Origin: Sporichthyaceae bacterium
GTDB lineage: Bacteria > Actinomycetota > Actinomycetes > Sporichthyales > Sporichthyaceae
Assembly (NCBI GenBank): GCA_036493475.1
Contig: DASXPS010000123.1
Coordinates: 1-34,363, forward strand
DNA: 34,363 nucleotides
Direction of reading: 5' to 3'
Positions 18,171 to 22,092 of this stretch are shown one piece after another (position 1 is the stretch's first letter; every line of letters starts with the position of its first letter). The translations under genes were made by a program, and so were the position numbers. The notes under the pieces were generated by a model. The model had not been told where the DNA came from and made no database searches. It saw only the letters and a list, made by a program, of their open reading frames with translations.

Positions 18171-19217
18171 TCACAACGTCTTGAACGACTCCAGTTCGGC
18201 GATGTGCCGCAGGCACCGGGTGGTGATCCTGTCGCCGAGACCGCGCCCGTCGCCGATGTCCATGGCACCGAGCAGCGCCATCCCGGCACCCAACGGGTAA
18301 ACGATGTTCTGCCGGTAGTGCTCCACGCAGTCGTCGTAGGAGTAGCCGGAGATGCCGTTGGCCACCAGTCGGCGGTGGTAGCGCTTGAGCAGTGATTCCC
18401 AATTCGCCGATAGGTCGTCGCCATCCATGCTCCCGGCCAGCAGGTTGCCCACGTCCTGGGTGCCGCGGCCGCGGGCGACCACCTGCCAGTCGATGAAGCA
18501 CGGCGTGGCGTCGCCGGCGAAGAACAGGTTGTCCAGTCGGGCGTCGTTGTGGATCAGCGTCTGCGGGCCCTCGACGAGGCGGGCCAGGATCTGCGGCCAG
18601 ACCGGCGCGCGTTCCAGGATCGCGGCCATCACGTCGGCGGGGACCGATTCCCCGTAGCGCTCGGCCAGCGCGGGCGCGCCACTGGCCACCAGTTGGCCGA
18701 TCAACCCGGCGAAAATCCCCTCGCCGGGGGAGGCCAGCGCGGGTTCGGCCAGCCGGTCCGATCCCCAGTACGCCGCGTGCAGGTCGGCCAGCGCGTCCAG
18801 GGTCGCCTCGGCGTCGGGCACCGTCATGCCGTCCATCTGGTCGCCCATCCGCTGCGTGCCCAGGTCCTCCAGCAGCAGCGGAGTGCTGTCCCCGTCGCCG
18901 ATAAACCAGCAGCGGGGCGTGCGCACCGGGACCGTGTCGGCGAAGTTCGCGTAGAACGCGGCCTCGCGGGCGAACAGCCCCATCACCGAGTCCATCTGCT
19001 GCTGGATCTCGCGCTGACCGCGCAGCTTGGCGATCAGCGTCGCGGGGCCGGGTGTGCCGTCGTCGGCATAGCCGACGTGCACCCGCGCCATGTCCGTGGT
19101 CGCCCCGGTGAACGCGACCGGCTCGACGTCGAACGATGTAACTGACGCTACGTCAGGTACCAGCACCCTTCGCAGCCAGTCAACGCCCAGTGCCGCGATC
19201 CGCTCGACGCCGCTCAT
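18171..19217 (-). CDS. Kinase-fold phosphotransferase (EcKL/APH-like)
   Basis: A 348-residue protein of the aminoglycoside-phosphotransferase/choline-kinase fold. The catalytic loop reads HNDARLDN (the usual HGD has Asn for Gly), and the metal-binding aspartate is in FIDWQ. The ATG at 19215-19217 overlaps the stop of the upstream oxidoreductase by 4 bp; the frame continues open upstream, but that part is a shadow. The sequence looks closer to the EcKL/DUF1679 group than to antibiotic kinases. It may phosphorylate a hydroxylated small molecule or CoA ester. It is third in an operon with two luciferase-like oxidoreductases, so a joint modification pathway is plausible but unproven. Confidence 0.82.
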   Translation of the reverse strand: MSGVERIAALGVDWLRRVLVPDVASVTSFDVEPVAFTGATTDMARVHVGYADDGTPGPATLIAKLRGQREIQQQMDSVMGLFAREAAFYANFADTVPVRTPRCWFIGDGDSTPLLLEDLGTQRMGDQMDGMTVPDAEATLDALADLHAAYWGSDRLAEPALASPGEGIFAGLIGQLVASGAPALAERYGESVPADVMAAILERAPVWPQILARLVEGPQTLIHNDARLDNLFFAGDATPCFIDWQVVARGRGTQDVGNLLAGSMDGDDLSANWESLLKRYHRRLVANGISGYSYDDCVEHYRQNIVYPLGAGMALLGAMDIGDGRGLGDRITTRCLRHIAELESFKTL

Positions 19218-20293
19218 GCCATCGCCTTCCACGCCGCCAACAACCCTGCGTTCTGGTCCGGTGTCGACCCGTAGGTCGCGATCTCGTCCGCCCCTGCGTC
19301 GACGAAGCGTGCCAGGTTGGCCGCGCACTCCGCGGCAGTACCGAACGCGCAGGAGTCCAGCATCCACTCGTCCGGGATCAGCGCGGCGGCGTCCATCATC
19401 TGGTGGCGGTGCATCTCCATGTCCGCGACCTTGCCCAGCCCGGAGAAGATCGGGTGGTTGCGGACGTCGCGGACCACCTGCTCGTCCCAGCCGTTCACCC
19501 GGGCCAGCTGCTCGCCGTAGCCGGGATAGACGAAGTACGTGGTCGCCCGGCCGTGCGCGAGCTGGCGGAACTCCTCGGAATCGAGGTCCGGCGCGGTGAT
19601 CACCGATTGGCAGATGCGCACCGATGCCGGGTCGCGATCGATGCGCTCACACGCCTCGTGGATGCGCGCCACGGCGGCCTTCGTCGCGGAGGGGGTGAAC
19701 ACCGGTGGCAGCACCACACCGTCGTAGGCCGCGGCGATCGTCGCCGCCCCGCGCGGATTGGCGAACGAGCCCAACCACAGCTCGGGCGGTGGCCCGTCGT
19801 AGGTCTCGGAGAAGGAGAAGTTCTCGAACGAGCCCGACTGTCCCGTGTAGGACACGGACTCGCCGCGCCATAGCGCCCGGTACAGCTGCGCGTACTCCAC
19901 CATCTCGGCGTACGAGGCCTTCCGGACACCCATCCGCGCGAAGATTGCGTCGTCGCCCAGGCCGAGGGTGATGGCCAACCGCGGCCCGAAGCAGGCGTGG
20001 AAGGTGGCGCCGAACGCGGCGGTGTTCCACACCTGACGGGTCTGCGGGTCGATGGTGCCGGTGGCCAGGCGCAGCGTGGAGGTACGGGCGGCGATGCCCG
20101 CCAGCAGCACGTCGGCGTGCTTGATGTCGTAGCGCTCGGAGAGGAATGCGCGGTGGAAGCCCAGGCGTTCGGCGGCCACCCCGTCGGAGATGCCCTCCGC
20201 CACCGTGCGCGATTCGGTCTCGAAGCGCCGGGGCCGGTCGTGGGCGCTGACGGCACCCGAAACGACGTAGGCGCTCAGGTCGGCGCGACTCAC
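19214..20293 (-). CDS. LLM-class F420-dependent oxidoreductase
   Basis: A 359-residue luciferase-like monooxygenase-fold (TIM barrel) protein. Recognisable features are the N-terminal GVAAERLGFHRAFLSERYD segment, TGTIDPQTRQ, the LGLGDD turn and the PELWLGSFANPRG flavin-region strand. It most resembles actinobacterial F420-type family members; whether it uses F420 or FMN cannot be decided by eye. The GTG start (20291-20293) overlaps the previous gene's stop (GTGA), and its own stop overlaps the kinase start. Likely a cytosolic redox enzyme acting with the second LLM protein upstream. Confidence 0.85.
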   Translation of the reverse strand: MSRADLSAYVVSGAVSAHDRPRRFETESRTVAEGISDGVAAERLGFHRAFLSERYDIKHADVLLAGIAARTSTLRLATGTIDPQTRQVWNTAAFGATFHACFGPRLAITLGLGDDAIFARMGVRKASYAEMVEYAQLYRALWRGESVSYTGQSGSFENFSFSETYDGPPPELWLGSFANPRGAATIAAAYDGVVLPPVFTPSATKAAVARIHEACERIDRDPASVRICQSVITAPDLDSEEFRQLAHGRATTYFVYPGYGEQLARVNGWDEQVVRDVRNHPIFSGLGKVADMEMHRHQMMDAAALIPDEWMLDSCAFGTAAECAANLARFVDAGADEIATYGSTPDQNAGLLAAWKAMA

Positions 20294-21432
20294 GACGCCC
20301 CCTTGAGCCGTCGACAGATCTCGATGTTGCGCCCCAACGCCTGCTGCGCGTCCTCCGGCTCGAGCACCAGCGGCATCAGGTCACACACGCTGACCCAGGT
20401 GGCGCCCGCATCGACGTAGGTCTGTACCTCGGCGGCGACCTGCTCGGGGGTGCCCTTCACGTAGGAGCGGTCCACGATCTCGTCGGTGATCCGGTCGAGG
20501 AACTCGTCGATCTCGCTGTCGGTCCACTCCACCGGCCGCAACTTGACGGCGTAGTGCCAGTCCTCGGGCATCGGCGGGGTGATGCCCTCGCGGGTCCAGG
20601 CCGCCATCTCCACCCGGCCGGCGATGCCCGCCATATACCGCAGCAGCTTGCCCCGTAGGGCTGTGCGGATGACCTCTTCGTCCTCGTGCACCGCGGCCAT
20701 GAACCACAGGCCGAAGCCGAAGGCCTCGGGGTCGCGGCCCTTGTCGGCGAGCGTCTTTTTGAGGTCGTCGATCCCGGCCTTGAACGACTCCGGGGTCGGA
20801 TACACCGACGGCACGATCGCCGCCATGCCGTCGGCATAGGAGGTGCCGAGGTCCAGCAGCTTCGGTCCGCCGCCCAACGCCCACAGATGTGGGCGGGCAC
20901 CGCGGGCGCTGCCCAGCCACGCGGTCTTCAGGCTCCAGTGGTTGCCGGTGCGGTCGACCGGGCCGGCGGTGGCGTCCCACAGCGCGTGGAAGGAATGGAG
21001 CTGGTCCTCCAGTCGCGCCAGGCCCTCGGCGCGCTTCCAGCCGTACGGGGTGGCCTGCTTCGCCTCGCCCGCGCCCATCATCACCGTGATCCGACCCGAG
21101 GTCATGTTCTGCAGGGTCAGCATGGTCTGGAACAACTCGGCCGGCCCGCGGCGGATCGCGTCGGTGCTGACGGTGATGCCCAGGTTCGGCGCCGCGGCCA
21201 GCACGTAGGCACTCAATGCGTAGGCGTCGGCGTAGGAGTCGATGTCCGGCAGCAGCGCGGCCAGGGGGGAGTTCTCCGGCGTCCAGAGTTGGCGCGGCCA
21301 GAAGTTGGTCATCTGGTCCCAGACCAGCAACTCGTCCACGACGCCACTGGCGGCGGCGGCCTGCGCGTAGGCGGCGAAGGCCGCGGGCGGGGTGAAGCGG
21401 TCGGAGATCAACGGGATCGAGGTGGTCACCAT
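20290..21432 (-). CDS. LLM-class flavin/F420-dependent oxidoreductase
   Basis: A 380-residue luciferase-like fold protein. Features include an N-terminal PLISDRFTPP strand, GVVDELLVWDQM, the MGAGEAKQATPYGW segment and a WLGSARGARP flavin-region strand. It is a divergent relative of the gene downstream. The start is the ATG at 21430-21432; the frame stays open upstream through the divergent tetR gene, but that part is a shadow. Only 30 bases separate it from tetR, and no ribosome site fits, since the bases before the ATG are CGCCCTC. A TACGGT -10 box lies 7 bases upstream, so the mRNA is probably leaderless and controlled by the palindrome at 21440-21455. Confidence 0.86.
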   Translation of the reverse strand: MVTTSIPLISDRFTPPAAFAAYAQAAAASGVVDELLVWDQMTNFWPRQLWTPENSPLAALLPDIDSYADAYALSAYVLAAAPNLGITVSTDAIRRGPAELFQTMLTLQNMTSGRITVMMGAGEAKQATPYGWKRAEGLARLEDQLHSFHALWDATAGPVDRTGNHWSLKTAWLGSARGARPHLWALGGGPKLLDLGTSYADGMAAIVPSVYPTPESFKAGIDDLKKTLADKGRDPEAFGFGLWFMAAVHEDEEVIRTALRGKLLRYMAGIAGRVEMAAWTREGITPPMPEDWHYAVKLRPVEWTDSEIDEFLDRITDEIVDRSYVKGTPEQVAAEVQTYVDAGATWVSVCDLMPLVLEPEDAQQALGRNIEICRRLKGAS

Positions 21433-21439
21433 GAGGGCG

Positions 21440-21455
21440 ACCGTACATGTACGGT
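21440..21455. promoter_or_regulatory. Perfect 16-bp palindrome: mirror-symmetric operator and twin -10 boxes
   Basis: ACCGTACATGTACGGT is a perfect palindrome centred at 21447.5, which is also exactly the midpoint between the ATG of the minus-strand gene (21432) and the ATG of tetR (21463). Each arm reads TACGGT outward (TANNNT, an actinobacterial -10), and each is followed by exactly 7 bases and then ATG. One site can therefore be both operator and -10 for two leaderless divergent transcripts. The likely ligand is the adjacent TetR protein. Confidence 0.7.
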
Positions 21456-21462
21456 ACGTGTC

Positions 21463-22092
21463 ATGACTAGTGCTCGTGCGGACCGTTTGACGCTCGACGT
21501 CATCGTCGACGCAGCCGCGCGGTTGATCGCCGAGGAGGGCTACGACGCGCTCAACATGCGGCGACTGGCCAAGGAGTGCGGCGTCGGGGTGATGACGCTC
21601 TACGGCTACGTGCGCACCAAGGACGAGTTGCTGCAGGCGTTGGCGGATCGGCTGTTCCACCTCGTCGACCTGGCCGATGACGAGGACCTGCCCTGGCCGG
21701 AGCACATCGCCCGGGTGCTGCGCTCGGTGCGCGCGATCTTCCTGGAGCACCCGGAGTTGCTGCCGATCACCGCCATGCACCGACTGGACGGCGCGGGCGC
21801 CTACCGCGGTGCGGAGTCGTTGTTCCGCGCGCTGGAGCAGGCGGGGCTGCAGGGCGCGCAGGTGGTGCACGCCTTCGACGCCATGGTCGCCTTCACCCTC
21901 GGCTTCGTGCAGCGCGAGGTGGGCACCGACCGTTCCACCGCCGGCCCGATGCCCGGCCTATCCCGACTACCACGGGAGGAGTACCCCCGGGTGCTCGAGC
22001 TGGCCGGACACATGGTCGCCCGCGACACCGACGCCGCCTTCGAGGCGGGCCTGCAGCTGTTGATCGCCGGGATCGCCGCGGTTGGTGCCTGA
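21463..22092 (+). CDS. TetR-family regulator of the LLM/kinase operon
   Basis: A 209-residue regulator. The N-terminal TetR DNA-binding domain has its helix-turn-helix around MRRLAKECGVGVMTLYGYVRTKDELL; the C-terminal ligand domain is helical. The ATG at 21463 follows a TACGGT box by 7 bases with no ribosome site, so the mRNA is probably leaderless. It is divergent from the LLM oxidoreductase operon across a 16-bp palindrome, the standard arrangement for an autoregulating repressor. It converges on the DHA2 exporter gene with a 30-bp gap. The inducer is unknown. Confidence 0.93.
   Translation: MTSARADRLTLDVIVDAAARLIAEEGYDALNMRRLAKECGVGVMTLYGYVRTKDELLQALADRLFHLVDLADDEDLPWPEHIARVLRSVRAIFLEHPELLPITAMHRLDGAGAYRGAESLFRALEQAGLQGAQVVHAFDAMVAFTLGFVQREVGTDRSTAGPMPGLSRLPREEYPRVLELAGHMVARDTDAAFEAGLQLLIAGIAAVGA

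Follow-up and report, generated by a model that had tools for sequence, protein, structure and literature searches.

The gap between a TetR-family repressor gene and a divergent luciferase-like monooxygenase (LLM) gene in the window (the whole 34,363-nucleotide stretch of Sporichthyaceae DNA analysed) contains a perfect palindrome that is probably the operator of the adjacent TetR and at the same time, through its two arms, the site of two leaderless divergent promoters, with one bound dimer repressing both. The features on which this reading is built are as follows.

21440-21455, no strand assigned: perfect 16-bp palindrome ACCGTACATGTACGGT, putative operator bound by a single TetR dimer
21450-21455, plus strand: TACGGT, predicted -10 (TANNNT) of tetR, 7 nt before the tetR ATG
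21440-21445, minus strand: TACGGT, 7 nt upstream of the LLM ATG, predicted -10 of that gene
21463-22092, plus strand: TetR-family repressor gene, 209 amino acids (TetR_N and TetR_C_1 by profile matches)
20290-21432, minus strand: LLM (luciferase-like, F420-type) monooxygenase gene, 380 amino acids (Bac_luciferase match; 93% identical in the sister species)
19214-20293, minus strand: second LLM gene, sharing 4 nt with the first
18171-19367, minus strand: APH/ecdysteroid-kinase-like phosphotransferase gene, given as its longest reading frame

The ATG codons at 21463-21465 (plus strand) and 21432-21430 (minus strand) are separated by 30 bases, and the palindrome centre at 21447.5 is the exact midpoint between the two starts at 21463 and 21432. 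The palindrome is limited to 8 + 8 bp as positions 21439 and 21456 are unpaired, and on both sides TACGGT is followed by 7 nt and the ATG. The initial annotation had described a 16-bp palindrome centred between start codons 30 bases apart, which is exact, and an outward TACGGT-N7-ATG from each arm, which matches the sequence on both strands. The 16-mer is present as a single copy in the 4.27-Mb genome, and the full composite pattern of palindrome, spacers and ATGs was found in one of 98 related genomes.

The TetR protein scores above the cut-off for both PF00440 and PF02909, combining a TetR_N helix-turn-helix with a TetR-type ligand domain, and the nearest solved structures are those of ActR and SimR-type repressors. 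Both ATGs are credible starts: the proteins read from them give TetR_N/TetR_C_1 and Bac_luciferase matches, and the sister species has its starts at the aligned positions. An alternative LLM start at 21448, within the palindrome, lies in a frame different from that of the LLM protein and was rejected. The second LLM gene likely belongs to the same operon as the first, as does the phosphotransferase gene, the true start of which is probably nearer to 19217 than to 19367.

Comparison with relatives provides strong evidence, short of proof, that the neighboring TetR uses the palindrome as its operator. In a sister species of the same genus the identical 16-mer (L004:1475-1490) is placed between orthologous LLM (93%) and TetR (74%) genes, with different spacers flanking it and with third codon positions that are 63% identical for tetR and 75% for the LLM gene. 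The probability of a perfect 16-bp palindrome at one given centre is about 5e-5, and the conservation of the site among the relatives compared is well beyond chance. In three species of a second genus of the family the TetR orthologs are about 52% identical and located away from the LLM gene, and CCGTACGCGTACGG-type sites, some of them as overlapping pairs, are found directly upstream of them. Mycobacterium triplex has a TetR (41% identical) with CCGTACATGTACGC / CTACCGTACATGTACGCTT upstream; this gene, the start of which is uncertain, heads a co-directional set of TetR, kinase, LLM and LLM, the same gene types as the TetR and divergent LLM, LLM, kinase operon of the window, although in M. triplex it is the kinase that lies between tetR and the LLM genes. 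A site of the type CCGTAC-NN-GTACGG thus lies upstream of TetR orthologs that have no divergent LLM partner, and the site thus follows the TetR rather than the divergent gene order, a behavior that supports its reading as the operator. Six TetR orthologs have in common an MT(L/I)YGYV run (MTLYGYF in the sister species) in the helix-turn-helix region. The palindromic operator candidate is intergenic and conserved together with its regulator. The initial annotation had proposed it as the TetR operator, and that proposal is supported by the conservation of the site in changed neighborhoods.

The overlapping copies of CGTACGCGTACG in the second genus (L005:2146-2170 and L006:1435-1458) are 11 bp apart and lie between the promoter and the Shine-Dalgarno sequence of the TetR orthologs, suggesting that more than one TetR dimer may bind there. 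Further close relatives of the TetR, in Mycobacterium and elsewhere in the phylum, are associated with related but different sites, for example TTACGCGTAA or TTGTACAA. A conserved divergent TetR/LLM pair was looked for in Mycobacterium and not found; four LLM homologs from this genus (L033-L036) are each co-directional behind an upstream gene, and a further one (L037) has a Shine-Dalgarno-like leader. Near-matches to the site with at most one mismatch are rare, at 15 to 34 per genome and not above control, so that the chance of finding one in a given upstream region is well under 1e-3. A wider regulon for the predicted operator was considered and rejected on the same counts, the closest near-match in the genome itself (CCGTACATGTACTG) being inside a transporter gene, and regulation therefore looks local.

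The assignment of the arms as -10 boxes follows from the sequences preceding the two starts. A TANNNT about 12 bp before the start marks leaderless genes, which make up more than 20% of genes in Actinobacteria (PMC3160421). Both genes in both species have a TANNNT 5-9 nt before the start, and no clear Shine-Dalgarno sequence precedes the tetR or LLM start in the window or the sister species. In both species the 120 nt ahead of tetR contain no TANNNT other than TACGGT. On the LLM side TACGGT is found at 7 or 6 nt, together with an overlapping TACCGT at 17-18 nt (ending 18 nt before the ATG in the window) and, in the sister species, an additional TAACCT at 24 nt. Taking the two species together, the spacing from TACGGT to the start is 7 nt at three of the four starts and 6 nt at the fourth. 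About 10 of 30 TetR genes sampled in this genome likewise have a TANNNT that precedes a plausible start by 6-8 nt, most commonly by 7 nt, where about 1% would be expected by our own estimate from base composition; background rates were drawn from genome searches and from these 30 TetR loci. An extended -10 was considered and rejected, as the TG directly abuts TACGGT and is one base off the TGnTANNNT form.

These features have to be weighed against a reading in which the palindrome functions solely as a TetR operator, its arms contain TANNNT by coincidence, and at least one of the two genes is transcribed with a leader from a promoter elsewhere. In the second genus the TACGGT half-site is found downstream of a separate and clear TTGACC-N17/18-TACNGT promoter, with a Shine-Dalgarno leader, so that the half-site need not be a -10, and the -35 regions at the window locus are poor, with 3-4 of 6 matches. 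Against this, tetR has no other candidate -10 in the 120 nt examined, neither start is preceded by a Shine-Dalgarno sequence, the 6- or 7-nt spacing is held at all four starts, and TetR genes of the leaderless type are frequent in this genome. An operator without promoter function in its arms is accordingly rated as unlikely, though it is the best placed of the alternatives. Leaderless starts for tetR and the LLM gene are likely, given the lack of a Shine-Dalgarno sequence, the lack of a better -10 nearby and the similar arrangement at about one-third of the sampled TetR genes, and both arms likely act as -10 boxes in the window. Leaderless initiation of both genes and the use of each arm as a -10 box, as put forward in the initial annotation, thus stand as predictions from the upstream sequences.

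The exact mirror symmetry, which had been taken as meaningful and without a known parallel, fares less well. In the sister species the spacers are 6 and 7, so that exact centring is broken with the palindrome and -10 spacings in the usual range both kept. A sequence-neutral pattern, CAT-N7-ANNNTA-N4-TANNNT-N7-ATG (7-4-7), was searched in 394 Actinomycetes genomes and found at 18 places compared with 8 for the reversed control. Ten of the 18 places, the window locus included, lie between two divergent reading frames of substantial length, and besides the window locus they represent four unrelated kinds of pair with this geometry.

TetR/polyketide-cyclase-like divergent pairs, Micromonosporaceae-like, five genomes (four loci read directly, the fifth taken from a near-identical match)
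Ni-SOD/S26 peptidase divergent pairs, two small-genome actinomycetes (L093 and L094:1501-1536), in leaderless geometry
YaaA/prolyl-tRNA synthetase divergent pair, one place
Helix-turn-helix protein/N6-N4 DNA methylase divergent pair, Streptomyces-like genome (L098:1501-1536)

The window locus is alone among these pairs in having a perfect central palindrome with arms that coincide with both predicted -10 boxes. On this comparison the exact symmetry is not special; it arises because the palindromic half-site reads TANNNT outward and is combined with the modal 7-nt leaderless spacing. The survey suggests that back-to-back leaderless pairs with 7-4-7 spacing may be a recurring layout in Actinomycetes. 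In the helix-turn-helix/methylase pair, 11-bp arms CATGGGTGTAA...TTACACCCATG take in both start codons. The Micromonosporaceae-like TetR/Polyketide_cyc2 pairs (L104-L118 and L120) share a conserved TGTACCAAATGGTACA beside the start of the enzyme gene; two of these relatives have a second copy of the site, and the group alternates between leaderless and Shine-Dalgarno-led starts on the enzyme side, forming a natural set for studying the gain and loss of leaders.

Symmetric DNA giving divergent transcription has been described by Warman and colleagues for bidirectional promoters, and one of the promoters studied, acrR/acrAB, involves a TetR-type autorepressor (PMC12825309). A TetR-regulated promoter of this type, with one shared symmetric -10 melted either way, would account for the symmetric sequence and the divergent starts of the window locus. 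However, the two predicted -10 boxes (21440-21445 and 21450-21455) are separate, 4 bp apart and without overlap, and the predicted starts are separated by about 31 bp, compared with mostly 10, 18 or 23 bp for the published promoters with overlapping elements (PMC12825309), making a shared -10 very improbable. The least probable reading of all, that the palindrome is bound by another regulator or is there by chance, can appeal to the four perfect 16-bp palindromes observed in the 34-kb, 70% G+C window against 1.6 expected, which makes the mere existence of one unremarkable, but the site tracks TetR orthologs through changed neighborhoods down to about 41-52% protein identity.

In the proposed mechanism, the operator with two leaderless promoters in its arms, the GTACGGT half-site of the TetR operator would happen to fit the actinobacterial -10 consensus TANNNT, and the two arms would double as the -10 boxes of back-to-back promoters that drive tetR in one direction and the LLM-LLM-kinase operon in the other. 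One dimer of TetR bound to the 16-mer would span both boxes, repressing its own gene and the LLM operon, and a ligand would free TetR from the site so that either promoter could fire. The predicted starts, at or next to the ATGs, are closer together than one polymerase footprint, from which we infer mutual exclusion, with one polymerase at a time proceeding in either direction and the two directions competing. A stronger version is offered tentatively and with more doubt than confidence: the TetR half-site and the -10 would be the same six bases on both strands, with TetR and polymerase competing for identical contacts both ways in a minimal 30-bp two-way switch, operator mutations would necessarily change both promoters, and TetR sites reading TANNNT outward would have a recurrent route into divergent leaderless promoters. 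If confirmed, the locus would come close to the lower size limit for a promoter regulated in two directions, with 30 bp between the start codons, one operator, two promoters and no leaders. It would then serve as a test case for the constraint on an operator sequence in which a repressor and a sigma factor need the same bases, and for how polymerases compete where leaderless genes diverge.

A literature search, covering few subscription journals, found no published case in which the arms of a single operator supply the -10 boxes of two flanking leaderless genes. The closest known systems share parts of the arrangement. Leaderless actinobacterial promoters, with a TANNNT that precedes the start codon by about 7 nt (PMC3160421), have the same element and spacing as both sides of the window locus, which differs in placing two of them back to back with the -10 boxes inside one palindrome. 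The Micromonosporaceae-like TetR/Polyketide_cyc2 pair identified here has the identical 7-4-7 leaderless geometry in five genomes, whereas its palindrome-like TGTACCAAATGGTACA is off-centre, over one start, and several of its relatives have a one-sided Shine-Dalgarno leader. Divergent pairs of a TetR-family autorepressor and its target (TetR/TetA, SimR/SimX and ActR in Streptomyces, and many in mycobacteria) likewise diverge from a small gap that holds a palindromic operator; in mycobacteria about 60% of TetR genes have this orientation, in most cases with no more than 200 bp in between (PMC4482099). In contrast with these pairs, and with SimR, which has two separate operators (PMC5812520), the window has a single predicted operator in a 30-bp gap, the two predicted -10 boxes fall within that operator, and neither gene seems to have a leader. 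The window locus belongs among the divergent TetR-type autorepressor systems, which are common in mycobacteria and Streptomyces; with one operator that would double as the -10 boxes of two leaderless promoters, it is a compact version of this known arrangement.
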